Below, piece after piece: positions 16,934-63,959 of a stretch of 64,000 nucleotides of DNA; within the stretch, counting starts at the first letter, position 1; each line of letters opens with the position of its first letter. Made by a program: the position numbers and the translations under genes. Under the pieces are notes generated by a model. The model had not been told where the DNA came from. It did not search any database and was given only the letters and a program-made list of their open reading frames with translations. Source of the stretch: Thalassolituus hydrocarboniclasticus (lineage in GTDB: Bacteria; Pseudomonadota; Gammaproteobacteria; Pseudomonadales; Oceanobacteraceae); assembly GCF_025345565.1 (NCBI RefSeq), contig NZ_CP054475.1, positions 3,124,006-3,188,005 on the forward strand. Reading direction: 5' to 3'.

Positions 16934-16976
16934 TTATACATCACATAGAAAAACGCTACAATGGAAAACTTATACA
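16934..16976 (+). promoter_or_regulatory. Promoter with two TTATACA motifs before the renalase-like gene
   Basis: TTATACA occurs at 16934-16940 and again at 16970-16976, in the gap between divergent genes. TATACA at 16935-16940 can act as a -35-like element, with TACAAT at 16957-16962 as the -10 (16-base spacer). The first motif would then overlap the -35 and the second would lie near the transcription start. The same heptamer is clustered before the photolyase operon, so shared control by its MerR-like regulator is inferred. Confidence 0.45.
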
Positions 16977-16995: not shown

Positions 16996-18003
16996 ATGGC
17001 CAGCATCGCAATCATTGGCGCCGGCATCGCCGGCCTGAGCGCACTGCAACTTCTTGCCGCACAGGGTCACGAGGTGACGGTATTCGATAAGAGCCGCGGC
17101 TCCGGAGGCCGCATGGCCACGAAAAAGGTTGACGACGCCAGCTGGGATATGGGGGCGCAGTTTATCCGTGCCCACAGCGCTGCCTTTACCGCCCAGCTGC
17201 AGCAATGGCAGCAATATGGCTGGGTTGAACAATGGAACATCACCCCCTGGATTGCCGATGCCAAAGGTCTGCACCCTTCGCCGGATACTGTGCTGCGCTT
17301 CGTCGGTACACCACGCATGACCGGCCTCAGCCGATCTCTGCTAAGCCCGGCCGCCGTATTTTGTGCCGCCACCCGCATTACCAAGGCGCAGCGCGAAAAT
17401 GGCCGGCACTGGTGGCTGGACAGCGATGAAGGCAAAACCTTCGGCCCCTTTGACGCTCTGCTGATCAGCACTCCGCCACAGCAAGCCGTACCACTGCTGA
17501 GCGCGGCGCCAATACTGGCGGCGCAATGTGAACAGGTCGGGATGCTGCCCTGCTGGACACTGCTGCTGACATTGCCGGAAGCAATAAGCAGCGCTCCGGA
17601 TGCTGTTTTTGTTAAACAGGGCCCACTGGGCTGGATCGCCCGCAATAACAGCAAGCCCGGACGGGATAAAAAAGAGGCCTGGGTGATTCAGGCCAGTCAT
17701 GAGTGGAGCCGCGAACATGCCGATGCCCCACGTGAACAGGTGCAGCAGGAGTTGCTGCACGCTTTCTTTGCCACCCTGCAGCAGCCACCACAACAACCCG
17801 ATACGCTGTGGCTGCACCGCTGGCTGTACGCAATACCGGCAAATAGCCTTACACTGGGTGCTTTAACCGATACCAGGCAGCAACTCGCCGTTTGCGGTGA
17901 CTGGTGCCACAGCCCTAGCCTTGAAGGCGCCTGGCTCAGCGGCCAACAGGCGGCACAGGCATTACTGACCACACTCCCGGACATGGCTGAACAACCACTA
18001 TGA
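16996..18003 (+). CDS. Renalase-like FAD-dependent oxidoreductase
   Basis: A 335-residue flavoprotein of the amine-oxidase fold, closest in pattern to bacterial renalase-like NAD(P)/FAD oxidoreductases. The dinucleotide motif GAGIAGL is at residues 8 to 14, followed by a VFDKSRGSGGRMATKK FAD-binding block and DMGAQFIRAHS. The C-terminal GDWCHSPSLEGAWLSGQQAA is the second FAD contact. Renalases oxidise isomeric forms of NAD(P)H; this exact activity is inferred, not proven. An AAGGA precedes ATG 16996. It overlaps cbiX by four bases (ATGA), so the two are translationally coupled. Confidence 0.85.
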   Translation: MASIAIIGAGIAGLSALQLLAAQGHEVTVFDKSRGSGGRMATKKVDDASWDMGAQFIRAHSAAFTAQLQQWQQYGWVEQWNITPWIADAKGLHPSPDTVLRFVGTPRMTGLSRSLLSPAAVFCAATRITKAQRENGRHWWLDSDEGKTFGPFDALLISTPPQQAVPLLSAAPILAAQCEQVGMLPCWTLLLTLPEAISSAPDAVFVKQGPLGWIARNNSKPGRDKKEAWVIQASHEWSREHADAPREQVQQELLHAFFATLQQPPQQPDTLWLHRWLYAIPANSLTLGALTDTRQQLAVCGDWCHSPSLEGAWLSGQQAAQALLTTLPDMAEQPL

Positions 18004-18392
18004 CTGTAAAAAATGCATCCATTCTGCTTGCTCACGGCAGCAGCGATCCGCACTGGCTGGCACCGTTTGAACAATTGCTGGAACGTATCCGCACGCGACT
18101 GGACAATCCTCAGGCCCGGGCCGAGCTGGCTTATATGGAACTGGCGGAACCCTCACTGCAAAGCCAGGTACGCAGCCTGGCCGACGAGGGCTATGGTCAT
18201 ATTGATGTATTACCGCTGTTCTTTGCTGCCGGGCGCCACCTGCGCAAAGACGTACCGGCAATGCTGGACAACCTGCAACGCCAGCTGCAACAGGAAGGCA
18301 GAGATATCAGCATTACGCTGCATCCTCCGGTCGGACTTGAACCCGAAGTGGCCGATGCCATCAGTCAGGTTGTGGTAAGACAGCTGCAGTAA
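18000..18392 (+). CDS. cbiX: CbiX-type sirohydrochlorin chelatase
   Basis: A 130-residue single-domain chelatase of the CbiX-small type, which inserts Co or Fe/Ni into sirohydrochlorin in siroheme or cobalamin synthesis. The start region ASILLAHGSSDPHWLAPFE contains the metal-binding His of the HGS motif. The second site is in IDVLPLFFAAGRHLRKDVP (GxHxxxD). It works as a homodimer. It overlaps the preceding flavoprotein gene. No other siroheme or anaerobic B12 genes are near, so pathway assignment is open. Confidence 0.88.
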   Translation: MTVKNASILLAHGSSDPHWLAPFEQLLERIRTRLDNPQARAELAYMELAEPSLQSQVRSLADEGYGHIDVLPLFFAAGRHLRKDVPAMLDNLQRQLQQEGRDISITLHPPVGLEPEVADAISQVVVRQLQ

Positions 18393-18634: not shown

Positions 18635-18733
18635 TTATACATAAACAAGAAAATATTATACAAAGGTGATTGACTTGTAGAACCTGATGGCGCCAGAATC
18701 ATCCTATACACAGAACGATGCAAAGGTTATACA
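18635..18733 (+). promoter_or_regulatory. Clustered TTATACA motifs and promoter of the photolyase/lipid operon
   Basis: Within 99 bases there are TTATACA at 18635-18641, 18656-18662 and 18727-18733, plus CTATACA at 18704-18710. The first two are 21 bases apart and the last two 23 bases apart, about two helical turns. After the second copy, TGTAGAA at 18676-18682 makes a near-palindrome with a 13-base spacer. TTGACT (18670-18675) and CAGAAT (18694-18699), 18 bases apart, are a plausible promoter inside this cluster. The last copy lies between the ribosome site and the start codon at 18736. Binding by the operon's own MerR-like regulator is inferred. Confidence 0.55.
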
Positions 18734-18735
18734 TT

Positions 18736-19731
18736 ATGGCTCAGCAGCATCCGGTAAAAATCTCAGATAACAGCACCCGCATCCCGGTTGGCATCAGTGC
18801 CTGCCTTATGGGGCAGGCGGTACGCTTTAATGGCTCACACAAACGCTCCCGTTTCTGCACCGACACCCTGAGTCAGTACTTTGACTTTGTATCCATCTGT
18901 CCCGAAGTCGCCATTGGTATGGGCACACCCCGTGAGCCTATCCGTCTGGTCAGCGAACATGCCGCCGACAGCAACGTCCGCGCCGTCGGAGTGACTGACA
19001 GCAGCATCGATGTTACCGATGCACTGGCGCAATACGGTGCCCGCCAGGCGCAGCAACAGCAGCATCTGTGCGGCTATATCTTTATGCAGAAGAGCCCAAG
19101 CTGTGGCTTGTTTGGTGTCAAACGCTATCTGGCCAATGGTCACCCGGAAGGCAGTGTGCGGGGGATCTACGCCGACGCATTCTGCAAAGCACATCCGTTA
19201 TTGCCAGTGGAAGAAGCAGGCCGCCTTAATGATGCAGTGCTGCGCGAAAATTTTATGACCCGCGTCTTCGCTTACCACGACTGGCAACAGTTTCAGGCTG
19301 CGGGAATTACCCGCAAAGGTCTGATTAATTTCCACTCGCGTTATAAATATCTGGTCATGGCTCACAGCCTGCTGCATTACAAAAGCATGGGCCGGCTGCT
19401 GGCCAATTTACGCGATGGCAATCTGCATATGCTGGCGCAGGACTATTTTGTGCAGTTAATGACGGCACTGGCCAAGCCAGCCAGCCGTAAAATGCACACC
19501 AATACCCTGATGCATTTACAGGGTTACCTGAAGCAACTGATTTCTGCCAGTGATAAAGCCGAACTCAGTGAGATCATTAACCAGTACCGTCAGGGGATTA
19601 TTCCGCTGGTCGTGCCGCTGACATTACTTAAGCATCACCTGAACCGCCACGGAGATATCAATAAATACGCCTGCCAGCAGGTGTATCTGAATCCTCATCC
19701 TTATGAACTCGGCTTACGGAATGCTTTATGA
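18736..19731 (+). CDS. DUF523-DUF1722 fusion protein (YbgA/TudS-like)
   Basis: The N-terminal half (about 1 to 160) is DUF523, the family of the Fe-S thiouracil desulfidase TudS. Three Cys in the expected places, GISACLMGQ, SICPEVAIGMGTPREP and KSPSCGLFG, could hold a 4Fe-4S cluster. The C-terminal half (about 190 to 325) is DUF1722, with NFMTRVFAYHDWQQF and FHSRYKYLVMAHS. This two-domain form is often found next to photolyase and MerR genes. Its role in the operon is unknown; thio-base or sulfur chemistry on nucleic acid is possible. I start at ATG 18736, nine bases after AAAGG; an in-frame ATG at 18718 has no site. It overlaps the regulator gene by four bases. Confidence 0.88.
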   Translation: MAQQHPVKISDNSTRIPVGISACLMGQAVRFNGSHKRSRFCTDTLSQYFDFVSICPEVAIGMGTPREPIRLVSEHAADSNVRAVGVTDSSIDVTDALAQYGARQAQQQQHLCGYIFMQKSPSCGLFGVKRYLANGHPEGSVRGIYADAFCKAHPLLPVEEAGRLNDAVLRENFMTRVFAYHDWQQFQAAGITRKGLINFHSRYKYLVMAHSLLHYKSMGRLLANLRDGNLHMLAQDYFVQLMTALAKPASRKMHTNTLMHLQGYLKQLISASDKAELSEIINQYRQGIIPLVVPLTLLKHHLNRHGDINKYACQQVYLNPHPYELGLRNAL

Positions 19732-20645
19732 GCCGCATGGATGAACGCGGTACCTATCCTATCCGGGAATTTGCCCGCCTTACCGGAGTTAATCCGGTAA
19801 CTTTGCGTGCATGGGAGCGGCGCTACGGCATTATTCGCCCGGAACGTACAGAAAAAGGTCACCGCTTTTACACCGATGAGCATATTCAGCATGTACGCCA
19901 TATTCTTTACTGGCTCGATCAGGGTTATCCGATCCGTCAGGTAAAGCTGCTGCTGAAAGAAGGTCCGGAACATGCAGAACATAACGACGACTGGTCAAAC
20001 CAGCAGCAACAGATAATCCGTGCTGCACAACACCTGAATACGCAGCATCTGGATGAATTATGGAATGCCGGGTTTTCCAGCTACCCGCTGGCGGTGTATT
20101 ACGAACGCTGCCTGTCTCCGGTGCTGCACTTCATGCGCAGCAGTAACACCCCCCATGTTGTTACCCACGCATTTGAACATCTTTTAAAGCGAAAATTCGG
20201 AGCCATGCTGCTGCAGCAACAACGTCACAACAGAGGGCCGGTTTTACTGCTTGCCACAAACCATGAGCATGCAGAAATTGAAACCCTTGCCTGTGCCTGC
20301 GCCCTCGGTGCTGCAGAATTCCGGGTTGAATATTTTGGCCCGCATCCGACACCTGCCGAACTCGATATGGTGCTGACAATGACTCCGGCTGATAACGTCT
20401 GGATTCACTTCCACCCATTAATTCCTGCGCAGCAAAAACAGTGGCAGCAATATCTTGCAGCCTGTCAGCTGCCGCATTTTCTTTCGGGTGCCATGCCTGA
20501 TACCAGCGTTAACGAAAATCACGCCCAGACATTAATCAGACTGCCAGAGCAGCTGTCGCGTCAGGTAAGACGCTTTATCACCGACAGCGCCTCACGCAGC
20601 AGAGTTTACGCAGAAAATAACACCCATAGCGGAGGTTTCCATTGA
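19728..20645 (+). CDS. MerR-family regulator of the LitR/CarH type with degenerate cobalamin domain
   Basis: A 305-residue transcription factor. Residues 10 to 79 are a MerR winged helix (YPIREFARLTGVNPVTLRAW, then RRYGIIRPER). The rest resembles the helical cap and Rossmann-type B12 domain of CarH/LitR light sensors. EH at 150-151 matches the cap EH pair, but the Trp expected ten residues earlier is absent. In the stretch NHEHAEIE (178-185) the usual HEIG-like corrin-ligand pattern reads as AEIE when EI is aligned, so axial ligation is doubtful. This fits cobalamin-independent (class II) LitR proteins, which respond to light with a partner. Its position inside the photolyase operon and the TTATACA cluster upstream suggest autoregulation. 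It overlaps both neighbours. Confidence 0.87.
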   Translation: MSRMDERGTYPIREFARLTGVNPVTLRAWERRYGIIRPERTEKGHRFYTDEHIQHVRHILYWLDQGYPIRQVKLLLKEGPEHAEHNDDWSNQQQQIIRAAQHLNTQHLDELWNAGFSSYPLAVYYERCLSPVLHFMRSSNTPHVVTHAFEHLLKRKFGAMLLQQQRHNRGPVLLLATNHEHAEIETLACACALGAAEFRVEYFGPHPTPAELDMVLTMTPADNVWIHFHPLIPAQQKQWQQYLAACQLPHFLSGAMPDTSVNENHAQTLIRLPEQLSRQVRRFITDSASRSRVYAENNTHSGGFH

Positions 20646-22108
20646 CTCAGTTAGTATGGTTCCGCAGTGATTTACGCACACGGGATAACCCTGCGCTCTG
20701 GCATGCCTGCAAGCATATTGAAGAAGGCGTGGTCGGCGTGGTCTTTGTTACCCGTCAGCAATGGCTGCAGCACGGATTGGGGGAGCGGAAAATACAGCTG
20801 CTGGAAAATGCGATGCTGGCATTAAAGTCAGAGCTGGCGTCTCTCAATATTCCTTTGCTGATTCTTCCGGCCAACACCTTTGCAGATTGCAATCAGACTC
20901 TGCAGCGGCTCATTATTCAGCTCGATATCCGTTCCGTTTCCTTCAATATTGAATACGAAGTAAACGAGCGTCGCCGCGATATAGAATTCGGCCGCTGGTG
21001 CCGTGAACAACAGGTTGAACTGTACAAGTTTCATGACCAGTGCGTTGTTCCTCCGGGAGAAGTTCGGACCAAACAGGGTCAGCCCTTTAAAGTTTTCACA
21101 CCATTCAAGCGCGCCTGGATTCAGCAGGCGGAAGACATCATGGCCGCCCCTCTGCCACAGCCCGGGCCATGCGAAAAAAATATTCAGGCCCCTCTGATTG
21201 CCCTGATTAACGCTCAGGCCAGCCTGTCTCTCAATACAGACCCGATAACCGCCAGCGCCGATCCGCTCTGGCCGGTAAGCGAAGAAGAAGCCCACCTGCG
21301 GCTGAATAACTTTGCTTATGAACGTGGTATTGACTACAAAAAACTACGGGATTTTCCTGCTGAAGATATGACCAGCCGGCTGTCTGTGTACCTGTCGCTT
21401 GGCCTTATTTCTGCACGCCAATGTCTGCATGTGGCACTTGACCGGAATAATGGCCTTTTCAGCGGTGGAAAACCGGGATTTGACTGCTGGATCAGCGAAT
21501 TAATATGGCGTGAGTTCTATCGCCACCTGCTGGTTGCGTTTCCGCAATTGTGTAAACACAAAGCATTTAAACCCGAAACTGAGCAGGTCTGCTGGCGCGA
21601 CAGCGAGGCAGATTTTCAGGCCTGGTGTGAAGGGCGCACCGGCTATCCCATTGTCGACGCTGCGCAGAAACAACTGCTGCAGGAAGGCTGGATGCATAAC
21701 CGTCTGCGCATGATCAGCGCGATGTTTTTAACCAAACATCTGCTTATTGACTGGCGTAAAGGTGAGGCCTTTTTCAATAAATGGCTGCTGGATGCAGACC
21801 TGGCCTCCAATAATGGCGGCTGGCAATGGAGCGCATCAACCGGTGCCGATGGTGTTCCCTATTTCCGCATTTTTAATCCGACAACACAATCACAACGCTT
21901 TGATGCAGAAGGGCAATTTATTGTCCGTTATTTGCCGGAGCTGACACCTCTTCCTGCAGCGGCACGCCATCAGCCCGATAGCCTGCAGCGTCAACGCTGT
22001 GGTTATCCGCAAGCTGTTGTAGAACATAAATTTGCCCGCCAACGGGCACTGGATGCTTTTAAACAGACACTAACCGCGGCCGACGCCGGAGATAACAATG
22101 ACGAATAA
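20642..22108 (+). CDS. phrB: Deoxyribodipyrimidine photolyase (CPD class I)
   Basis: A 488-residue flavoprotein that splits cyclobutane pyrimidine dimers with blue light. The N-terminal antenna domain starts TQLVWFRSDLRTRDNPALWH. The FAD domain has SELIWREFYRHLL, GRTGYPIVDAAQKQLLQEG, MHNRLRMISAMFLTKHLLIDW and the signature NGGWQWSASTGADGVPYFRI, with the electron-transfer Trp residues. Length and motifs fit E. coli PhrB-type enzymes rather than cryptochrome-DASH. The start is TTG at 20642, six bases after GGAGG, and overlaps the stop of the regulator gene. The end overlaps the desaturase gene by 11 bases. Confidence 0.95.
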   Translation: MTQLVWFRSDLRTRDNPALWHACKHIEEGVVGVVFVTRQQWLQHGLGERKIQLLENAMLALKSELASLNIPLLILPANTFADCNQTLQRLIIQLDIRSVSFNIEYEVNERRRDIEFGRWCREQQVELYKFHDQCVVPPGEVRTKQGQPFKVFTPFKRAWIQQAEDIMAAPLPQPGPCEKNIQAPLIALINAQASLSLNTDPITASADPLWPVSEEEAHLRLNNFAYERGIDYKKLRDFPAEDMTSRLSVYLSLGLISARQCLHVALDRNNGLFSGGKPGFDCWISELIWREFYRHLLVAFPQLCKHKAFKPETEQVCWRDSEADFQAWCEGRTGYPIVDAAQKQLLQEGWMHNRLRMISAMFLTKHLLIDWRKGEAFFNKWLLDADLASNNGGWQWSASTGADGVPYFRIFNPTTQSQRFDAEGQFIVRYLPELTPLPAAARHQPDSLQRQRCGYPQAVVEHKFARQRALDAFKQTLTAADAGDNNDE

Positions 22109-23090
22109 GGACGCATCAGGCTCAGAGCAGCTCCCTAACAGGAGTGCCTTGCGCACGAATATTATTCGCTGGTTTGATTCTGAGATCAGCAGTAACGAAG
22201 ACATGAGCAGTACAGAATTCAACTGGTTGCGTGTCATGCCTTTTATCATTCTTCATCTGCTCTGTTTGCTGGCATTTTTTCTGCCGGTCAGCACCACCGC
22301 GATTACTTTCTGCTTTGTTTTATACTGGCTGCGCCTTTTTGCTATTACCGCATTTTATCATCGCTATTTTTCTCATCGCGCATACAAAACCAACCGCTTC
22401 TGGCAGTTTATCTTTGCCCTGCTGGGCAATATGGCGGCACAACGCGGTCCGCTGTGGTGGGCGGCTCATCACCGCGCACACCATCAGCATGCCGACACTG
22501 ATGAAGACCTGCACTCACCGGTTAAACGCGGGTTCTGGTGGAGTCATCTGGGCTGGTTCACCTGTGACGCTTCTTTCCGTACCCAGCACCACCGCATTAA
22601 AGACTTTTCGCGTTTTCCGGAACTGCGCTGGCTGAACAGATACGACAGCTTTGCACCATTACTGCTTATTGCCTTGCTGTTTATTGCCGGAGAATGGCTG
22701 GCTGCTGCGGCTCCGGAATTAAATACCAACGGCTTGCAACTGGTTGTCTGGGGATTCTTTATCTCCACAGTATTACTGTTTCACTCTACCGTCACCATTA
22801 ATTCGCTGGGACATATATGGGGTAAAAAGCGTTTTCAGACCAAAGATGAAAGTCGTAACAACGCCTTTCTGGCACTGCTCACACTCGGCGAAGGCTGGCA
22901 CAACAATCATCACCGCTGGGCGGTATCAGCCCGTCAGGGTTTCTATTGGTGGGAGCTGGATATTACCTATCTGATTCTGAAAATGATGAGCTGGGTTGGC
23001 ATTGTTCATGATCTGAATCCAGTACCTGCCCATGTACTGGCCGAAGGTCGTTTTCCTGCTCAGCACAAGACTGCGGAGAAATCATCTTGA
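22098..23090 (+). CDS. Membrane fatty-acid desaturase (acyl-CoA/acyl-lipid delta-9 type)
   Basis: A 330-residue membrane di-iron desaturase. The three histidine boxes are H88RYFSH93, H125RAHH129 and H268NNHH272, in the order and spacing of stearoyl-CoA-type desaturases. Hydrophobic segments lie at about 45 to 90, 102 to 115, 185 to 205 and 215 to 235. It would introduce a double bond into membrane acyl chains. In this operon it could supply the unsaturated substrate for the Cfa-type methyltransferase. Start ATG 22098 has GGAG upstream and lies inside the end of phrB; the stop overlaps the next start. Confidence 0.92.
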   Translation: MTNKDASGSEQLPNRSALRTNIIRWFDSEISSNEDMSSTEFNWLRVMPFIILHLLCLLAFFLPVSTTAITFCFVLYWLRLFAITAFYHRYFSHRAYKTNRFWQFIFALLGNMAAQRGPLWWAAHHRAHHQHADTDEDLHSPVKRGFWWSHLGWFTCDASFRTQHHRIKDFSRFPELRWLNRYDSFAPLLLIALLFIAGEWLAAAAPELNTNGLQLVVWGFFISTVLLFHSTVTINSLGHIWGKKRFQTKDESRNNAFLALLTLGEGWHNNHHRWAVSARQGFYWWELDITYLILKMMSWVGIVHDLNPVPAHVLAEGRFPAQHKTAEKSS

Positions 23091-23536
23091 ACACCCAGAA
23101 AAGTCTGTTACAGAGCAGTGAGACTGAACGCTTTCAGAATCTGTATCACGTCCTTAACCGTGATACCGTTTCTGCTGATCTGCTTAAAACCTGTTATGCC
23201 GACAGCATTATGTTTTGCGATCCGTTTCATGAAATACAAGGTATCGATGCGCTTACTGACTATTTCACGGCGATGTACAGCAATGTTAATCATATCGACT
23301 TTATTTTTACCAACTGCTGGCATCAGACAGAACGCAGCATGTTGCGCTGGACAATGAATTTCCGTCATCCGCGTTTGCGCCACGGCGACCTTATCAGTGT
23401 CGAAGGCTGCAGTGAGCTGCGCTGGGAAAATGACCGTATTGTTTACCATCGTGATTTCTTCGATGCCGGGGCAATGCTGTATGAAAACATTCCCTTATTT
23501 GGCTGGGCGATCCGCAAGCTGAAGGAGCGTATGTAA
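23087..23536 (+). CDS. SnoaL-like (NTF2 fold) protein
   Basis: A 149-residue protein of the nuclear transport factor 2/SnoaL-like type, with the helix-rich start RFQNLYHVLN, then CYADSIMFCDPFHEIQGIDALTDYFTAMY and later beta strands (ISVEGCSELRWENDRIVYHRDFFDAG). Members are small enzymes or binding proteins with a conical pocket. In photolyase/lipid clusters a protein of this type is a common companion, function unknown. The start is TTG 23087 behind GGAG at eight bases, overlapping the desaturase stop. The SDR start overlaps its stop. Confidence 0.82.
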   Translation: MNTQKSLLQSSETERFQNLYHVLNRDTVSADLLKTCYADSIMFCDPFHEIQGIDALTDYFTAMYSNVNHIDFIFTNCWHQTERSMLRWTMNFRHPRLRHGDLISVEGCSELRWENDRIVYHRDFFDAGAMLYENIPLFGWAIRKLKERM

Positions 23537-24357
23537 TGAATAACAGGAAACTTTCAGCGGCCGATAATTCACTGCCCTTGTCCGCACAGATCATCTGGCT
23601 GACCGGCGCATCCAGTGGTATCGGTGAGGCTCTGGTGCATGCACTTCAGGCGCAATGCCAGCAGCTGATTATCAGTGCACGCAATGCTGAAGCGTTGCAG
23701 CGGCTGGCTGATCAATACAGTAACGTCAGCATCCAGGCTGCAGATATAACCGATGCCGGACAAATGTTGTCAGCTGCTGAAGCCATCGGCGATCAGTTTG
23801 GCCGTATCGACACATTAATAGCCAATGCCGGGACCTGTGAATATGTCGACGTCGACAACTTTGACAGCGCGTTAATCCGGCGTGTACTTGAGACCAACTT
23901 CTTTGGATTGGTTAATACCGTTCAGGCAGCATTGCCATTACTGGAAAAAAGCCAGCGCGGCCTGATTGCCGGCATGAGCAGCAGCGTTACCTGGCTGGCC
24001 ATGCCCCGCGCCCAGGCGTACGGCGCCAGCAAAGCCGCCGTGCGTCATTTCCTCGAATGCATGCAGGCTGATCTGAAACACAAAGGCATCGATGTCAGTA
24101 TCATTTCTCCGGGATTCGTCCAGACACCACTGACTGACCGTAATGATTTCCCTATGCCGGGAAAAATAGATTCTTCCGAAGCGGCTGACATTATTGTTAA
24201 AGGGATACGCAAACGCAGCCTCGAAATACGCTTTCCGTTTATGTTCACACTTGTGCTCAGACTTATAGGATCACTTCCTGCATCCCTGCGTCTGAAAGTC
24301 ACCAGCGCCATGGCACGTAACGAAAAATCAGAAAAAACCGGAGATCAGCAGAAATGA
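23536..24357 (+). CDS. Short-chain dehydrogenase/reductase
   Basis: A 273-residue classical SDR. The NAD(P) motif is ITWL-like IIWLTGASSGIGEALVHAL (TGASSGIG), with NAG in TLIANAGTCEY. The catalytic residues are S (in GMSSSVTWLAM) and Y-x-x-x-K (AYGASKAAV). The C-terminal LVLRLIGSLPASLRLKVTSA may bind lipid or membrane. The substrate is unknown; an acyl or carbonyl intermediate of the lipid pathway is inferred from context. AAGGAG precedes the start, which overlaps the previous stop (TAATG). The next gene overlaps by four bases. Confidence 0.9.
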   Translation: MNNRKLSAADNSLPLSAQIIWLTGASSGIGEALVHALQAQCQQLIISARNAEALQRLADQYSNVSIQAADITDAGQMLSAAEAIGDQFGRIDTLIANAGTCEYVDVDNFDSALIRRVLETNFFGLVNTVQAALPLLEKSQRGLIAGMSSSVTWLAMPRAQAYGASKAAVRHFLECMQADLKHKGIDVSIISPGFVQTPLTDRNDFPMPGKIDSSEAADIIVKGIRKRSLEIRFPFMFTLVLRLIGSLPASLRLKVTSAMARNEKSEKTGDQQK

Positions 24358-25613
24358 AAGAACGTATCGCAGTTATTGGCTCCGGAATTTCCGGCCTTAC
24401 ATGTGCCTGGCTTTTACGTGAAAAGTACGACATTCATCTTTATGAAGCTGGTGATTATCTTGGTGGTCATACACAAACCAACGATATTGAGGTTGAGGGT
24501 AAAACATACCCGGTTAACAGCGGATTTATTGTTTTTAACGACTGGACTTATCCCAACTTCATTCGTTTGATGGACCGCTTGGGAGTTGCATCAGAAAACT
24601 CCGATATGAGTTTCAGTGTAAAATGTGAGCGCTCGAACATGGAATATAATGGTCACTCTCTTGATTCTTTGTTTGCCCAGCGCAGTAATATTTTCAACCT
24701 GCGTTTCCTGTGGATGATCCGCGATATTCTGAAGTTCAACAAAGAAACCCGGGCTGAACTGGCGTCCGGTGAAATAAGCGATAGTGAAACGCTGGGTGAG
24801 TACCTGCAGCGAAAAGGCTACAGCGATTATTTCCGCCGTTATTACATCATCCCCATGGGCGCCGCGATCTGGTCCGCCAGCGAAGCGATGATGATGGATT
24901 TTCCTCTGTATTTCTTCCTGCGCTTTTTCAATAACCACGGCATGCTCAGCGTTGATGACCGTCCACAGTGGAAAGTGATCAGTAATGGCTCTCAGAGTTA
25001 TGTTCGCCGCATCGAGCAGGATCTCAGCGCCGACCAGATTTACCTGAATACGGAAGTTACCCGTGTAGAACGCGATGATCAGGGTGCTACGATTTATTCT
25101 TGCCGTGGTGCAGAGCGTTACTCACAGGTCATTTTTGCCTGCCACAGCGATCAGGCGCTGAAAATGCTTTCTGCACCGACACCACAGGAACAGGAAATTC
25201 TCGCAGCCATCCCTTATAAAATGAATGATGTGGTACTGCATACCGACAGCAGCATCCTGCCTGAAAGTAAAAAAGCCTGGGCGGCATGGAATTACCATAT
25301 TGGCTACAAAGCACAGGATACCGTTGCCGTTACTTATTACATGAACCGGCTGCAGAACTTCGATGATGCTCCGGTCGATTTTTGTGTAACGCTGAATAAA
25401 ACCGCTGATATTGATCCGAAAAAGATACTGCGCTCCTTCCGCTATGCTCATCCGGTATTCACTCTGGAAGGGATGGCGGCACAAAAACGCCATGCGGAAA
25501 TCAGTGGGCATAATAACAGCCACTTCTGTGGCGCTTACTGGTTCAATGGTTTTCACGAAGATGGTGTCAAAAGTGCTCTGCGTGTCACTGAAGCCCTCGG
25601 AGTCTCCCTGTGA
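24354..25613 (+). CDS. COG2907-type FAD-dependent amine oxidase-like protein
   Basis: A 419-residue flavoprotein of the amine-oxidase/desaturase fold. The FAD motif GSGISGLTCAWLL is at residues 9 to 21, then DYLGGHTQT and YPVNSGFIVFNDWTYPNF. These are signature blocks of the COG2907 group that is nearly always linked to DUF1365 and a Cfa-type methyltransferase. As I recall, such flavoproteins take part in furan and methyl-branched unsaturated fatty-acid synthesis in Rhodobacter; transfer of that role here is inference. Translation is coupled to the SDR gene (ATGA). Confidence 0.88.
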   Translation: MKERIAVIGSGISGLTCAWLLREKYDIHLYEAGDYLGGHTQTNDIEVEGKTYPVNSGFIVFNDWTYPNFIRLMDRLGVASENSDMSFSVKCERSNMEYNGHSLDSLFAQRSNIFNLRFLWMIRDILKFNKETRAELASGEISDSETLGEYLQRKGYSDYFRRYYIIPMGAAIWSASEAMMMDFPLYFFLRFFNNHGMLSVDDRPQWKVISNGSQSYVRRIEQDLSADQIYLNTEVTRVERDDQGATIYSCRGAERYSQVIFACHSDQALKMLSAPTPQEQEILAAIPYKMNDVVLHTDSSILPESKKAWAAWNYHIGYKAQDTVAVTYYMNRLQNFDDAPVDFCVTLNKTADIDPKKILRSFRYAHPVFTLEGMAAQKRHAEISGHNNSHFCGAYWFNGFHEDGVKSALRVTEALGVSL

Positions 25614-25659
25614 AATCAGCTTATGAAGATTCATCAGAATCAGTCCGGGGGATAAAGCC

Positions 25660-26574
25660 ATGATCCGGAACAGCGCCATATATACCGGCTGGGTGCGTCA
25701 TCGTCGCTTCACCTTTGTGGACAACATGCTGCGCTATAACGTTTTTATGGTCATGATCGATCTCGACGAGATTGATCAGGTTATGGATCTTCACCCTCTG
25801 TGGAAATCAGGAAAAAAAGGGGCGGCTCTGGTTCGCTTCTGCCGTGAGGATTACTTTGCCGCAGAGCAAAAAATATCCGATCAGGCATCTGACCTTAAAC
25901 GCCTTCTGGTCAATGCATTTTATCAGGAGTCTGGTGAGCGCGTAGAACGTATCAGCATGCTCACTAACCTGCGCACCTTCGGCTATCTGATTAATCCGGT
26001 CACTTTCTATTTTGGTTACCGGGCCGATGGCAGTCTTGCCGGAATCCTTGCTGAAATCACTAACACCCCCTGGGGAGAACGGTTTCATTACACATTAACA
26101 ACGGCAACGACAGCAACAGATACGTCTTTACCCTATCAGCAGAAAGCCATTGCACCACTGCGTCAGCTGAGCAGCCATACAGCCACAGGATTCAATGGCT
26201 ACGAATACCGCTTCAATAAAGATTTTCATGTATCGCCTTTTAATCCGATGTCAATGGAATACCGCTGGGTTATCCAAACTCCGGGAGAAGAGCTGCTGAT
26301 TCATATGGACACTTTTAATAAGGCGAACCAGGGCGACAAAGACTTTGATGCCACGATGAAACTGACGAGACATGATTTTTCCACAGCCATGATGTCGTCT
26401 GTTCTGTGGAAATTTCCCTTCATGACACTCAGGGTTTTGACCGGAATTTACTGGAATGCACTTAAGCTGTGGATCCGGCGATCACCATTTTATGATCATC
26501 CGGGAACCACCTCACCTGACGATATTTTTAATAATAAATCTGAGGCCAGATCTGGCCAGGAGAAAACACGATGA
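25660..26574 (+). CDS. DUF1365 family protein
   Basis: A 304-residue DUF1365 (COG3496) protein. The start [20 protein letters not shown] and the block [20 protein letters not shown] are the family hallmarks, with [18 protein letters not shown] further on. No signal peptide; a C-terminal amphipathic or membrane-touching helix is possible. Its activity is unproven, but it is always paired with the COG2907 flavoprotein and the Cfa-like methyltransferase. A GGGGGA lies before ATG 25660, after a 46-base gap, the longest in the operon. It overlaps the next gene by four bases. Confidence 0.88.
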
Positions 26575-27827
26575 AATCTCTGACGCTGAATCCGGAAAAG
26601 ATGCACTGGCTGGATCGCTTATGCCGCAATGCACTGCTGCGCACACTTAATAACCTCCATACCGGTAGCATCCGCCTTAAGGAAGGTGACCAGCAGCACA
26701 TTTTTGGTAATCCGGATGACAGCGGTTTCAGTGCTGTTATTGAAATTCTGGATTATGAGGCATACCGCAACATCGCCCTGAATGGCAGTGTTGGAGCCGG
26801 TGAGTCTTATATGACCGGAGACTGGATCAGCGATGACTTACCGATGCTGATCCGTATTCTGGCCCGTAATAAAGATGTGGTGGACAACATCGACAGTGGC
26901 CTTGCTAATTTCGGTAAGTTACTGCTGAAAGGCTTTCATTACCTCAATCGCAATACTGAAAAAGGGTCTCGCCGTAATATTGCTGCTCACTATGATCTTG
27001 GCAATGATATGTTTGAACTCTTCCTTGACCCTACCATGATGTACTCAAGCGGTATTTTTCCGTCAGAAAGTGCAAGCATGGAAGAAGCTTCCATTTATAA
27101 ACTCGATCGTATCTGTCAGAAACTGCAGTTAACTGAAAATGACCATCTGATCGAAATCGGCACAGGCTGGGGCAGCATGGCAATTCATGCCGCCAAACAC
27201 TACGGCTGCAAAGTAACCACTACCACCATTTCTGAAGAGCAGTATGCCTGGGCTGAACGGCGTGTACGCGAAGAAGGACTTGAGGATAAAATTACCCTGC
27301 TGAAAAAGGACTATCGTGCGCTTGAAGGCCAGTATGACAAACTGGTCTCAATTGAGATGATTGAAGCCGTTGGGCACCAGTTCCTGAATACCTATATAGA
27401 AACCTGCAGCCGCTTGCTGAAAGATGATGGCATCGCCCTGATTCAGGCGATCACCATTGACGACCAGCGTTATGAGCAGGCGAAGAATGAAGTCGACTTT
27501 ATTAAACGCTATATTTTTCCGGGAAGCTTTATTCCCTGTGTCACAGCCATATCCCAGGCAGTCAGCCGCGCCAGTGATATGAAAATGATTCACATGGAAG
27601 ATATCACTCCGCATTATGCCCGTACCCTGGATGCCTGGCGCAAACGCTTCCTCAGTAATCGTGAACAGATTATGAACCTTGGCTACGATGAAACCTTTAT
27701 CCGGTTATGGGACTTCTACTTTGCCTACTGCGAAGGTGGCTTTGCCGAACGGGTAATCGGTGATGTCCAGTTGGTATTTGCCAAACCGCTGAACCGCCGT
27801 ACGCCATTACTGGGAAAACTTAACTGA
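26571..27827 (+). CDS. Cyclopropane-fatty-acyl-phospholipid synthase family methyltransferase
   Basis: A 418-residue SAM-dependent enzyme acting on double bonds of phospholipid acyl chains. The N-terminal lipid-binding region leads to [28 protein letters not shown], then the SAM motif EIGTGWG (195-201) and [10 protein letters not shown]. The C-terminal YCEGGF Cys lies where E. coli Cfa has its catalytic Cys. In this operon the product may be a methyl-branched rather than a cyclopropane chain, because such paralogues cluster with COG2907 and DUF1365. AGGAG precedes ATG 26571. Confidence 0.93.
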
Positions 27828-27828
27828 T

Positions 27829-28338
27829 ATGAACGCTCTGCAGAAACATATTTCAGCAGGGACAAAAACAGCACAGTTGATCAATATTATCGGTTTTCAA
27901 CTGTGCTGGGCCGCCTGTGTTATTGGTGGAAATATTTGGGCTCTTCTTTGCGTTTTCCTGTTTATGTTGTGGCACTGGACACAGAGAAAACCAGGCGAAT
28001 TAAAACTGATTATTCTCCTGACTCTGACAGGCACATTGTTTGACAGTATATTGATGCATCTGGGAGTTCTTTTATTTCCTTCGCACGGCGGGGTTGTTAT
28101 TCCCTTGTGGCTGATTCTTCTGTGGTGTTCTTTCGCTGCGACACTTCGCCACTCGCTGGCCTGGCTACTGCAGAGGCCACTGCTAGCATCGGTGCTTGCT
28201 GCCATTTCGGCCCCATGGAGTTATTACGCAGGATCATTATTTGATGCCGTTTCCCTTACATATCCGGCATTACCTGTCATCGCTGTGGCCTGGGCTGTAT
28301 TGCTGGGGTTTATATCCGTTAATAGCCGGGGGAAATAG
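27829..28338 (+). CDS. DUF2878 membrane protein
   Basis: A 169-residue inner-membrane protein with about five hydrophobic helices (about 17 to 45, 57 to 75, 80 to 100, 108 to 130 and 140 to 165). The LGVLLFPSHGGVVIPLWLILLWCSFAATLRHSL stretch is typical of DUF2878. Function unknown; the family is usually found beside Cfa-like methyltransferase, COG2907 and DUF1365 genes, so a membrane-lipid role is inferred. It starts one base after the cfa stop. Confidence 0.82.
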   Translation: MNALQKHISAGTKTAQLINIIGFQLCWAACVIGGNIWALLCVFLFMLWHWTQRKPGELKLIILLTLTGTLFDSILMHLGVLLFPSHGGVVIPLWLILLWCSFAATLRHSLAWLLQRPLLASVLAAISAPWSYYAGSLFDAVSLTYPALPVIAVAWAVLLGFISVNSRGK

Positions 28339-28341
28339 TCC

Positions 28342-29097
28342 ATGTTAGCAACCGTCATTAAATCGGTATTTTTATTTATAGCCGGGCCAGTGATCAGTGT
28401 TCATGCCAGTGAGGTGATTACCTACTCTGGCAAAGCCTATTCTATGGATGACTCCCGCACGTTACTTTACTGCGAAGAGCATCAGCTGAAGCTCCTTAAT
28501 GATGAGCCATACAAACGGCAAGTCAGATACTTTGATAGCAATAACAATCTGATTGCCGAAAAAGAGAACAACTACTTCAGTAATCCTGCTGCACCTGAAT
28601 TCAGCTTTCACGATAAGCGCCACAATTATTATGAGCAGGCCAGATATAACGATGACGGCAGTCTGACCCTGATTCTGAAAGAAGATAACGATAGTCAAAG
28701 CCAGAAAATACCGGTTAAAGATTTACAGAATAATCTGATCATCGATGCCGGATTTGACGAATTTGTAAGGCGTCACTGGCAGTCCCTGTTATCCGGCCAG
28801 ACGGTCAGTTTCAGCTTTGCTTCTGTTGCGCGTCTGGACCTTATCAGTTTCCGCCTGAAAAAAATTGCTGATGATGACCAGAAACTGGTTCTCAGCATGC
28901 GTTTAGAATCACGTCTGCTGGCCTGGTTACTGGATCCTATAGAGCTGACCTACGACCGGAACAGCCGGAATCTCCTGCGTTATCGCGGCCTGAGTAACAT
29001 AATGGATACTAATGGTGAAACATACAGTGCCGATATACGTTACGACTATTCGTCCGGCTGCCAGAGCTCCCCGTCATCTGCGACCGGCAGTTCCTGA
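28342..29097 (+). CDS. Secreted protein of unknown function, last gene of the lipid operon
   Basis: A 251-residue protein that I do not recognise. Residues 1 to 23 are a Sec signal peptide (MLATVIKSVFLFIAGPVISVHA), so it is periplasmic or outer-membrane. The mature part is beta-rich and charged, with SMDDSRTLLYCEEHQLKL near the start and LAWLLDPIELTYDRNSRNLLRYRGLSN near the end, a pattern reminiscent of beta-sheet lipid-binding proteins. That resemblance is weak. GGGGGAAA precedes ATG 28342, three bases after the DUF2878 stop. It ends with an imperfect inverted repeat (TGACGTC 29095-29101 and GACGTCA 29129-29135). Confidence 0.75.
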   Translation: MLATVIKSVFLFIAGPVISVHASEVITYSGKAYSMDDSRTLLYCEEHQLKLLNDEPYKRQVRYFDSNNNLIAEKENNYFSNPAAPEFSFHDKRHNYYEQARYNDDGSLTLILKEDNDSQSQKIPVKDLQNNLIIDAGFDEFVRRHWQSLLSGQTVSFSFASVARLDLISFRLKKIADDDQKLVLSMRLESRLLAWLLDPIELTYDRNSRNLLRYRGLSNIMDTNGETYSADIRYDYSSGCQSSPSSATGSS

Positions 29098-29246: not shown

Positions 29247-31337
29247 ATGAAATCACCGATGAGCCTGGCCATCAGCCCTCTTTCGGCTGGCCGAAAAAAA
29301 CTGCTGCTGTCTTTTATTCCTGCACTTATTCCGGCACTGGCCCTGAGCGTTCAGGTCAGTGCTGAAGAGACAGAATCTGTTGAGCTGGACACCGTGCAGA
29401 TCAGTGGCCAGGAAGAAAAGCTGAGTGAAATTTCCACCGAAAAACTGCTGAAAATTCCCGGTTCCGGTAATGATCCGCTCCGGGCTATTGAAAGCCTGCC
29501 CGGTGTAACCTTTGCCGGCGGCAGAACATCCGCACCGGCCGTGCGTGGTTCATCACCGGATGATAACGCCTATATTATTGACTTTATTCCCGTTGGCTAT
29601 ATTTTTCATACCGATTCATCGAGTATTTTAAGCGATAACGTTGTTGAAGATTTTACGCTGGAAACCGCTGCATTTCCGCCCCAGTACAACAATGCAACCG
29701 GCGCCGTCATCGATGCCACATCACGCTCCCCCTATTATGACCGCAGCCAGTTTATTATTGATGCCAGCCTGCTGAAGGCCGGTATTTTTATCGAACAACC
29801 GCTCAGCGAAAATCAGAGTTTTTATATTGCTGCACGCCAGAGTCTGTTTCAGTACTACATCGAGAACTTTCTCGATGACGAAGACTTCGAGTTCACAACC
29901 GTACCGGAATATTACGATTATCAGGGAAAATATGAGTACCGCATCAGCGCTACGGAGACCCTGTCATTCCAGGCTATTGGTTCCCGCGACAAAGCCGGAC
30001 TGGTCTTTGCTGAAGACTCCGACACACTGCTGCAGGACCCGGGCTTATCCGGCGGACTGGCTTTTGAAGCCTTCTTTAACAGTCAGGGGCTGGTCTGGGA
30101 AAAGCTGTATAACAGTGGTATGACCCATAAGATCGGCCTGTCGCAAATGGAGCAAAAACTTGGCTTCCGTATCGGTCCGGATAACAAAATTGATGTCAAA
30201 GTAAATGACTATAACCTGCGCAGCCAGTTCAGCTATCCGTTAAATTACCAGCATGAATTGCGCTGGGGTGTGGAATTAACGGAAAGCCAGATCAGCTATA
30301 AAGGCCGTTTTGAAGCTCCGCCCTGTGATGAATTTACGCCGGATTGCCGCATTGTTGATGGCACAGAAATATTGGAAGGCGATGGTAAGCCAACCATTTA
30401 TCATTACGATGCGCACCTTGCCGACGTCTGGGATATTACCCCCGACTGGACCCTGACGCCGGGTATTGCATTGTCCTATGACGATTACACCGAACAGTAT
30501 TTCACCGAGCCGCGTCTGCAAAGCCGCTGGCAATTCACTAATAACTGGTGGTTTACCAGCGCCTACGGCCGTCACCATATTCTGCCGGATAATTTTGGTG
30601 ATTATGTAGCACCCTTCGGTAACCCGGATCTGAAACAACCAACCGCGACGCACTACGAATTGGGCATTGAAAATCAGCTGGCCAATGACATGCTATGGAA
30701 AGTCGAGGTTTATTATAAGGATCTGGACAATATTATTATCAGCCGTCCGGATAAGACTTATTACAGCGGTCTTACCGATGAAGAGTACGGCGACCTGCCC
30801 CTCTATACCAACGATGCCAGCGGTAAAGCCTGGGGGATGGAATTTTTCCTGAATAAAAACCTGACTGAACACTGGTATGGCTGGGTATCGGTAGCGTACT
30901 CACGCACCTTCCGTACCAATAATTTAACCGGAGATGACTTCAGTTATAACTACGACCAGCCGGTTATTATTAACAGTGTGGCGAATTACAAACTGAATAA
31001 AGACTGGCAGGTCGGCTTTAAATGGCGCTACCAGAGCGGCCAGCTGATTACGCCATTGGAAGATGCTGTTCAGGATGCTGATGATCCGGCCCTGTATAAT
31101 CCGATTTACGGCAATCTGAATTCCGAACGTTTACCGGCCTATCACAAACTGGATGTACGCGCCGACCGCACCTATCGCTTCAGTGGCTGGGAGATGGATT
31201 TCTATGCTGAAATTCTTAACCTGTATGGACGCGACAATGTCACCGGCTACGAATACAAAGGCGCGGATTACAGCGAGAAAGAAGAAGTCACCGATTTACC
31301 GACCATTATCTCGTTCGGTATTAAAGCCAAAATCTGA
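29247..31337 (+). CDS. TonB-dependent outer-membrane receptor
   Basis: About 696 residues. I use ATG 29247 (MKSPMSLAIS), which has a GGGAA before it; the frame is open to 29139 but without a site. A signal peptide ends near SVQVSAEE. A plug domain (about 45 to 155) carries LDTVQISG, a possible TonB box, and SLPGVTFAGGRTSAPAVRGSSPDDN. The remainder is a 22-strand-type barrel ending FGIKAKI, shorter in length than siderophore receptors. No Fur box is visible upstream. Substrate unknown. It follows the lipid operon by 149 bases on the same strand, so read-through is possible. Confidence 0.85.
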   Translation: MKSPMSLAISPLSAGRKKLLLSFIPALIPALALSVQVSAEETESVELDTVQISGQEEKLSEISTEKLLKIPGSGNDPLRAIESLPGVTFAGGRTSAPAVRGSSPDDNAYIIDFIPVGYIFHTDSSSILSDNVVEDFTLETAAFPPQYNNATGAVIDATSRSPYYDRSQFIIDASLLKAGIFIEQPLSENQSFYIAARQSLFQYYIENFLDDEDFEFTTVPEYYDYQGKYEYRISATETLSFQAIGSRDKAGLVFAEDSDTLLQDPGLSGGLAFEAFFNSQGLVWEKLYNSGMTHKIGLSQMEQKLGFRIGPDNKIDVKVNDYNLRSQFSYPLNYQHELRWGVELTESQISYKGRFEAPPCDEFTPDCRIVDGTEILEGDGKPTIYHYDAHLADVWDITPDWTLTPGIALSYDDYTEQYFTEPRLQSRWQFTNNWWFTSAYGRHHILPDNFGDYVAPFGNPDLKQPTATHYELGIENQLANDMLWKVEVYYKDLDNIIISRPDKTYYSGLTDEEYGDLPLYTNDASGKAWGMEFFLNKNLTEHWYGWVSVAYSRTFRTNNLTGDDFSYNYDQPVIINSVANYKLNKDWQVGFKWRYQSGQLITPLEDAVQDADDPALYNPIYGNLNSERLPAYHKLDVRADRTYRFSGWEMDFYAEILNLYGRDNVTGYEYKGADYSEKEEVTDLPTIISFGIKAKI

Positions 31338-63649: not shown

Positions 63650-63895
63650 TCAGAACAACTCGATTTCGCCGCCAGGCTCGTTCTGGCGGTGACGATCATT
63701 TTCTTCTGCCAGCACCAGATCCTTCAGATCACGTAATTCATCATCATTCAGTTCGGTAATATCCAGCTTGCGGAAAGTGCGCTTCAGCACGTTATAAGCA
63801 TGGAAACACTGCTGATGAGCCGGCCCTTTGAGCGGAACCGTGAGGCCGCTATGGCCGAATACCGGCTTACTGCAAAATACACAATTGAGCGACAT
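63650..63895 (-). CDS. Small zinc-ribbon protein (DUF2175-like)
   Basis: An 81-residue protein with a Cys-x2-Cys pair (LNCVFCSKPVFG) and a His/Cys pair (GPAHQQCFHAY), likely one zinc site. The rest is a charged helix (LNDDELRDLKDLVLAEENDRHRQNEP). It resembles DUF2175/COG4847. Function unknown. AAGGAAA precedes the ATG. It converges on the chemoreceptor gene with one base between the stops. The TTATACA palindrome lies 38 bases upstream of its start. Confidence 0.75.
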   Translation of the reverse strand: MSLNCVFCSKPVFGHSGLTVPLKGPAHQQCFHAYNVLKRTFRKLDITELNDDELRDLKDLVLAEENDRHRQNEPGGEIELF

Positions 63896-63933: not shown

Positions 63934-63959
63934 TTATACATTAATCATCTTTTGTATAA
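63934..63959. promoter_or_regulatory. TTATACA-N12-TGTATAA palindrome
   Basis: TTATACA (63934-63940) and TGTATAA (63953-63959) are perfect inverted copies with a 12-base spacer. This is the form I recall for operators of LitR-type regulators, T(G/A)TACA-N12-TGTA. It lies in the gap upstream of the zinc-ribbon gene (minus) and of whatever begins at the right edge, where an ATG at 63981 opens MTKLSL and runs off the window. It matches the motif clustered near 16.9 and 18.7 kb. Confidence 0.5.

Follow-up and report, generated by a model that had tools for sequence, protein, structure and literature searches.

A window of 64,000 nucleotides from the single-contig, 4.07-Mb genome of Thalassolituus hydrocarboniclasticus (NZ_CP054475.1, positions 3,124,006 to 3,188,005) contains an operon in which, judging by its gene families and surroundings, a photolyase unit of the LitR/LOV type is combined with a desaturase-bearing, furan-type lipid module. 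All eleven plus-strand open reading frames listed by a first-pass annotation are present at 18736..29097 (Table 1), and its account of overlaps or gaps of at most 46 bases holds (junctions, in order, of -4, -4, -11, -4, -1, -4, +46, -4, +1, and +3 bases). The family labels are borne out by profile matches to 2-thiour_desulf with DUF1722, MerR_1, cyclobutane pyrimidine dimer (CPD) photolyase, the desaturase family PF00487, SnoaL_2, adh_short, Amino_oxidase/NAD_binding_8, DUF1365, CMAS, and DUF2878, the eleventh protein having no Pfam match. The start of the first gene, rudS, is placed at 18736 rather than at the upstream ATG at 18718, consistent with the relative L172 (L-numbers denote loci and G-numbers genomes; L172–L176 represent five genomes of the same family, and L086 is the locus of G162).

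The product of the first gene, whose identity the first-pass annotation had missed, is by family RudS, a tRNA 4-thiouridine desulfidase (PMC11417400) in which PF04463 (E = 1.5e-35) is fused to PF08349 (E = 2.7e-39). Three adjacent genes encode an FAD protein, a DUF1365 protein, and a Cfa-like CMAS protein, which correspond at the family level to UfaD, UfaO, and UfaM, respectively; the COG2907 label first given to the FAD protein is also that of the FAD gene in a like cluster described in PMC10012899. The eleventh protein is secreted and fits the unclosed beta-barrel fold of EipB (DUF1849) and LolA.

The gene order is not a product of chance, since four of the five same-family genomes (L172–L175) hold the whole set in the same order, including the desaturase, the secreted protein, and the outer-membrane gene that lies further downstream. 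The fifth locus, L176, is rearranged: the desaturase and the secreted protein are present and sdr is relocated, while no rudS, merR, cbiX, or outer-membrane match was found there. In L174 the ufaO (DUF1365) frame is broken (G496:C10:259435-260279), perhaps by a sequencing error or by decay.

The originally proposed limits of the operon stand for the eleven genes but not for its end. The outer-membrane gene, overlooked at first and showing weak TonB-plug/receptor similarity without a good family match, closely follows the stop of the secreted-protein gene in four same-family relatives (gaps of 62, 23, 23, and -4 bases in L172–L175), and for this reason the operon probably continues into it. In the window, the distance from that stop is 149 bases if the likely ATG serves as the start, or 41 if an upstream TTG does, and one TGTACA box falls within the 149 bases. 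On the other side, genes for an amine-oxidase-like FAD oxidoreductase and a CbiX-like chelatase, which have boxes of their own, precede the operon here and in L172–L175, with the CbiX-like gene held at the equivalent place in four of the five same-family genomes. In L089 the FAD-oxidoreductase gene is the next gene upstream of merR, and in Marinobacter-type loci it is divergent from the desaturase operon.

Table 1. Genes and candidate regulatory sites of the operon region and of a distal LitR site, in window coordinates
Feature	Position	Strand	Remarks
RudS	18736..19731	+	TudS (DUF523) + DUF1722 fusion; tRNA 4-thiouridine desulfidase by family
LitR/CarH-family MerR regulator	19728..20645	+	B12-binding domain not found (class II type)
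PhrB	20642..22108	+	CPD photolyase; NF007955, 521.5 bits, cut-off 506
Membrane fatty-acid desaturase	22098..23090	+	DesC/SCD type; histidine boxes kept
SnoaL/NTF2-like protein	23087..23536	+	
Short-chain dehydrogenase/reductase (SDR)	23536..24357	+	
UfaD-like FAD protein	24354..25613	+	Methyl-acyl desaturase by family
UfaO-like DUF1365 protein	25660..26574	+	Furan-forming oxygenase by family
UfaM-like protein	26571..27827	+	Cfa-family acyl methyltransferase
DUF2878 protein	27829..28338	+	
Secreted protein	28342..29097	+	EipB/LolA-like beta-barrel
Outer-membrane protein	29247..31337	+	TonB-plug type; probable twelfth operon gene
FAD/NAD(P)-binding protein	16996..18003	+	Amine-oxidase-like; possibly same regulon, separate transcript
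CbiX-like chelatase	18000..18392	+	
TRTACA half-site array before rudS	18636..18733	+	Boxes at 18636, 18657, 18676 (TGTAGA, degenerate), 18705, 18728
rudS promoter	18670..18699	+	-35 TTGACT 18670-18675; -10-like CAGAAT 18694-18699
Two TATACA boxes before FAD-oxidoreductase gene	16935..16976	+	16935-16940, 16971-16976
Perfect LitR consensus site	63935..63958		39 bases before small CxxC gene
Small CxxC protein	63650..63895	-	Sub-threshold DUF2175; possible regulon member

Relation to known light operons

Nine of the eleven gene kinds form, as far as families and order can tell, an operon that is already known. Pseudomonas mendocina has a nine-gene unit (PME6650-PME6610) with LitR, PhrB, an SDR, an FAD oxidoreductase, and UfaM, and reported light induction is 25- to 33-fold for phrB and ufaM (PMC9758184). 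An Aeromonas cluster in print comprises NTF2, SDR, FAD, DUF1365, Cfa, and DUF2878 genes (PMC10012899). On the Salinivibrio proteolyticus plasmid NZ_CP114585 the order is RudS-MerR-PhrB-NTF2-SDR-FAD-DUF1365-Cfa-DUF2878, i.e., that of the window minus the desaturase, and the same nine gene kinds are ordered alike in the order-mate G162. The series rudS-litR-phrB-SnoaL-SDR-ufaD-ufaO-ufaM-DUF2878 is found in the window, the comparison with Pseudomonas covering the gene kinds named there.

Consequently, the earlier suggestion that the desaturase, SnoaL-like, and SDR genes extend the usual core holds for the desaturase only. The SnoaL and SDR genes are rejected as novel additions, being part of the known unit and present in desaturase-free operons (G162 and the Salinivibrio plasmid). 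By this comparison, the genes extra to the known operon are those of the desaturase, the secreted protein, and the outer-membrane protein.

Linkage of the desaturase to furan-fatty-acid genes

The desaturase retains histidines H88, H93, H124, H125, H128, H129, H239, H268, H271, and H272, which are invariant in 20 sequences, and it matches structures of stearoyl-CoA desaturases (SCD1, E = 1.9e-30). It is 54–58% identical, over 75–79% of its length, to cyanobacterial acyl-CoA desaturases, one of them annotated as desC1. Cyanobacterial DesC introduces the first, delta-9 double bond into lipid-bound chains. In a quick tree of 68 rows, for which 44 of 113 linked and all 21 unlinked desaturases were taken, a starred group of 59, made up of 42/44 linked and 17/21 unlinked desaturases, leaves out the cyanobacterial pair.

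Furan-type genes recur beside this desaturase in two samples of genomes. In the order sample (194 genomes searched), 18 genomes, the host included, have a desaturase match at E <=1e-108, and all 18 carry DUF1365 on the same contig within ~4 kb; ufaD and ufaO were both found at 17 of the 17 loci examined more closely. The class sample comprised 369 genomes, 114 of them with DUF1365; desaturases lie near DUF1365 in 28 of 112 neighborhoods, the host's own genome and G337 (a 3131-base contig) being excluded. Proximity depends on similarity: 24 of 29 class-sample places at >=300 bits are within 6 kb of DUF1365, as against 4/15 at 220–300 bits and 0/27 below 150 bits. These tiers cover 71 of the 72 places besides the window's own, the exception being G294:C9:2660 (124.2 bits) on a contig without the DUF1365 match, and the weakest tier includes a separate DesA-like gene of the host. 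A reading of the desaturase as a stray housekeeping DesA is rejected on both counts, i.e., the existence of that separate gene (32% identity) and the lack of linkage in its tier.

Among the 80 best desaturase loci from named genomes, ufaD, ufaO, and ufaM all occur within 8.5 kb in 60, ufaD with ufaO in three, ufaD with ufaM in one, a single ufa gene in six, and none in ten, some of the misses being due to short contigs. By record title these loci belong to Pseudomonadota, Verrucomicrobiota, Planctomycetota, Nitrospirota, Myxococcota, and others, the nearest being from Marinobacteraceae and uncultured gammaproteobacteria. Distance matrices of the desaturase and UfaD over 110 loci correlate at r = 0.76, against a maximum of 0.14 in 500 permutations, shared descent and locus sampling being ignored; the 133 ufaO loci were drawn partly as an even sample of the class and partly for the desaturase they carry. 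On a UfaD tree of 194 rows, desaturase presence needs 19 changes, at least 11 of them by starred branches, suggesting that the link has been gained or lost repeatedly; this count, too, takes no account of shared descent or locus sampling. The linkage is therefore well supported by genome comparison. Its recurrence supports a pathway role for the desaturase, whose step within the pathway is a testable hypothesis.

UfaM, UfaD, and UfaO are reported to turn phospholipid-bound vaccenate into a methyl-furan acid, with UfaD and UfaO functions established in two alphaproteobacteria; in Rhodobacter the three enzymes suffice and three other operon genes are dispensable (PMC7380195). Furan chemistry at the window locus would follow the same course. 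As this synthesis acts on phospholipid-bound chains, the simplest role of the desaturase would be to make monounsaturated substrate in place. FabA is present in the host genome (305.9 bits), so that the desaturase would be a dedicated supply and not the cell's only one; the idea of a sole source of unsaturated chains is thus disfavored, though FabA is rarer in linked genomes. With UfaM, UfaD, and UfaO sufficient and FabA at hand, the host could in principle do without a dedicated desaturase.

These same facts favor another possibility, that the desaturase acts late, adding an extra double bond to a methylated or furan chain and yielding an unsaturated furan or a polyunsaturated branched lipid. 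FabA already gives monounsaturated chains in the host, the three Ufa enzymes are enough for a plain furan acid (PMC7380195), and 12 of the 29 desaturase-linked genomes of the class sample also have FabA. We consider late action unlikely: beyond the linked group, the closely related sequences come from cyanobacteria and are of the kind that forms the first double bond, and FabA is less frequent in linked (12/29) than in unlinked DUF1365 genomes (57/85; Fisher p = 0.017, shared descent ignored). The lower frequency fits first-bond supply by a desaturase that can replace FabA.

The link between the desaturase and these genes is partly in print already, though not as furan chemistry. The nine-gene unit smlt2375-smlt2367 of Stenotrophomonas maltophilia encodes a periplasmic protein, a desaturase, an FAD oxidoreductase, two Cfa synthases, hypothetical proteins, and a lipocalin; loss of ChrR increased its expression 165- to 697-fold, an effect reversed in the absence of sigma-Ec (PMC11832516). 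We equate it, by position and not by sequence, with the type of S. rhizophila locus L233, where the order is sec-des-ufaD-ufaO-ufaM-DUF2878-second methyltransferase. The S. maltophilia authors read their operon as membrane lipid modification by a desaturase and cyclopropane synthases (PMC11832516). In line with this, the operon might serve general membrane remodelling in light, with desaturase and methyltransferase acting independently on fluidity or on cyclopropane and methyl-branched chains and no dedicated four-step pathway. Halomonas UfaM expressed in E. coli gave the 11-methyl intermediate, and cyclopropane chains were also detected (PMC12089945). Such independence appears improbable in view of the ufaO match beside the desaturase in 18/18 close homologs of the order sample, the presence of ufaD in 17/17 examined, and the furan functions of UfaD and UfaO in two alphaproteobacteria (PMC7380195). 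The open-access literature searched, which is only part of the whole, yielded no paper tying a desaturase to furan acids.

Two further observations concern the spread of the module. In Acinetobacter haemolyticus, a plasmid classed by typing as mobilizable (L272, CP085288.1 80914-87726) carries a lipocalin-desaturase-FAD-DUF1365-Cfa-DUF1295-methyltransferase cluster beside IS66 genes, and strains may exchange the furan-type module. Loci with this type of desaturase also repeatedly contain another Cfa-like methyltransferase, in many cases together with a DUF1295 protein (L035, L202, L230, L272); this additional enzyme may be a FufM-like second methylase.

Candidate LitR/LOV control

The operon LitR gives MerR-type matches, sub-threshold similarity to MlrA and CarH, and one sub-threshold PSD4 match. 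A second LitR, with MerR matches only and 29% identity to the first, lies ~13 kb beyond the window. Divergent from it is a short LOV gene; this pair (G000:C1:3200401-3202002; L166:8402-10003; ~12–14 kb past the window), being outside the window, was missed by the first-pass annotation. The short-LOV protein (L166:8402-8866) has 154 residues, the motif DCRFLQ, and PpSB-LOV kin (best E = 5e-62, to structure 7r5n). Thus, both marks of a class II LitR system are present, i.e., a MerR protein lacking the B12-binding domain and a short LOV with its flavin cysteine beside LitR.

Pseudomonas LitR binds T(G/A)TACA-N12-TGTA(C/T)A, with P. mendocina boxes located over the -35 and between start site and gene, and a short-LOV protein is described as binding the second LitR and relieving repression (PMC9758184). 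Within 98 bases upstream of rudS, around the -35 and -10 elements, we found four TATACA boxes and one TGTAGA. When the window was simulated 200 times with a first-order Markov model, a four-box cluster never arose (no more than one box in 45 copies, two in 147, and three in 8). L173–L175 have five boxes with the spacing of the window, and in L172 four of these positions are retained, with one extra box upstream. Before the FAD-oxidoreductase gene, there are two boxes in the window, three or four in L172–L175, and none in the fifth same-family genome. Half-site boxes are also present in L086, L063, and L089.

Perfect N12 consensus sites number two in the 4.07-Mb genome and zero in the reversed control. 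One (G000:C1:3088801-3088824; L170:1501-1524) stops 4 bases short of a DPRP/CryB-type photolyase gene, and CryB belongs to the Pseudomonas light regulon (PMC9758184). The other precedes the small CxxC protein gene of Table 1, which may be a new light-regulated gene. A scan of 221 loci allowing one mismatch gave 25 matches, ten of them near operon-gene starts against 3.4 expected; three of the ten are rudS promoters of L086 and L063, the others may be chance, and the 22-kb window segment had no match.

We doubt that the operon answers oxidative stress instead of LOV-sensed light and judge this the least probable of the alternatives considered. The precedent is the MerR protein VCA0056 of Vibrio cholerae, which was modelled as responsive to reactive oxygen species and controls 63 blue-light genes (PMC5241685). 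Against such a regulator here, a PpSB-type short LOV adjoins the LitR paralog, and the best ChrR match in the host genome stays below cut-off (32.3 bits, cut-off 124.5). The latter result also leads us to reject sigma-E/ChrR control of the window operon. The candidate circuit, consisting of the second LitR beside a short LOV, the TRTACA boxes of the rudS promoter, and the LitR site before a CryB-like gene, is what is new here, and it is moderately supported as the control of the operon. The original proposal of one light-response operon joining DNA repair to acyl-chain modification gains support by analogy from the Pseudomonas induction cited above (PMC9758184), the LitR/short-LOV pair, and the LitR-type boxes.

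Proposed function and comparison with related systems

We propose, with a probability of roughly 55%, that this operon serves damage control, that light derepresses it, and that its desaturase provides UfaM with double bonds in lipid-bound chains. In the dark, a LitR-type repressor, probably together with the second LitR, would occupy the TRTACA boxes lying across the -35 and in the leader, as extrapolated from Pseudomonas; blue light would switch LOV, release LitR, and allow expression. RudS would then remove photosensitive 4-thiouridine from tRNA and PhrB repair pyrimidine dimers, while the lipid genes would remodel acyl chains of the membrane into furan fatty acids, acting as oxidant scavengers. 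The DesC-type desaturase would convert lipid-bound saturated chains to cis-unsaturated ones and so renew the substrate of UfaM within the membrane; methylation by UfaM, formation of a conjugated diene by UfaD, and oxygen insertion by UfaO would close the furan. The secreted EipB/LolA-like and outer-membrane proteins may handle or sense the modified lipid in the envelope. Least certain are the substrate of the desaturase and the roles of the SnoaL, SDR, DUF2878, and two envelope proteins.

Several observations weigh against this proposal. The N12 LitR consensus misses the rudS promoter even at two mismatches and has four matches in the window, which is the chance level; the best window pair has 13-base spacing and includes the degenerate TGTAGA, and the half-site view was adopted only after the sequence was seen. 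Boxes are lacking before des in 16/16 Marinobacter-type loci and before the tested genes of L071, L176, L178, and L190. On the lipid side, the host can form unsaturated chains through FabA, the Pseudomonas LitR operon works without a desaturase, and the likeness of the window UfaM, UfaD, and UfaO to the Rhodobacter proteins is one of family. The desaturase also occurs unlinked, as in the ten of the best 80 named loci with no nearby ufa gene, and neither ufaD nor ufaO lies within 8.5 kb in any of the six Nitrospira loci among the 80; the permutation and Fisher tests leave shared descent in. The light response and lipid products assigned to this organism are carried over from other systems. Given the many loci that miss the boxes, LitR-type control looks confined to some lineages, with the lipid module governed otherwise elsewhere.

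Furan fatty acids are antioxidants of fish, plants, and microbes, and the bacterial mono-methyl pathway has been described with three enzymes. Should a desaturase belong to it routinely as a fourth member, a four-gene cassette would allow direct tests of where the initial double bond comes from and of which furan isomers can arise. A bolder generalization, which we offer tentatively and hold at rather less than even odds, is that furan-fatty-acid synthesis in bacteria generally begins with a DesC-type desaturase, a step so far unrecognized. A des-ufaD-ufaO-ufaM cassette distributed across several phyla would then act on membrane lipid, giving new isomers on demand after light or singlet oxygen (e.g., with the ring on carbons 8–11 from delta-9 chains), and the periplasmic EipB/LolA-like protein would carry or sense the product.

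Compared with the UfaM-UfaD-UfaO pathway of R. sphaeroides and R. palustris, the three families are likewise contiguous, here as ufaD-ufaO-ufaM, whereas no sigma-E/ChrR was found and a desaturase is added. The smlt2375-smlt2367 unit shares with the window operon a periplasmic protein, an acyl-CoA desaturase, an FAD oxidoreductase, and Cfa-type enzymes as one unit, but it has sigma-E, a second methyltransferase, and a lipocalin where the window operon has RudS, LitR, and a photolyase. The locus also brings together two regulons described separately, the LitR/LOV light operon and the sigma-E/ChrR lipid operon, an arrangement suggesting that one lipid module came under different light sensors.

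The Pseudomonas LitR (PplR1/PmlR1) operon agrees in the named gene kinds and in a second LitR located elsewhere beside a short LOV; its boxes over the -35 and in the leader have candidate LitR-type counterparts in the window. It differs in box spacing (12, against 13 here). The window operon has in addition a desaturase gene, inserted between those of photolyase and SnoaL, as well as the gene of a secreted EipB-like protein and, probably, that of an outer-membrane protein. On Salinivibrio NZ_CP114585 the desaturase is absent and the end is formed by a hypothetical gene and a DUF3833 gene. Finally, RudS shows the same TudS-DUF1722 fusion as the known protein and the same place beside LitR and photolyase, with no difference seen at the domain level.

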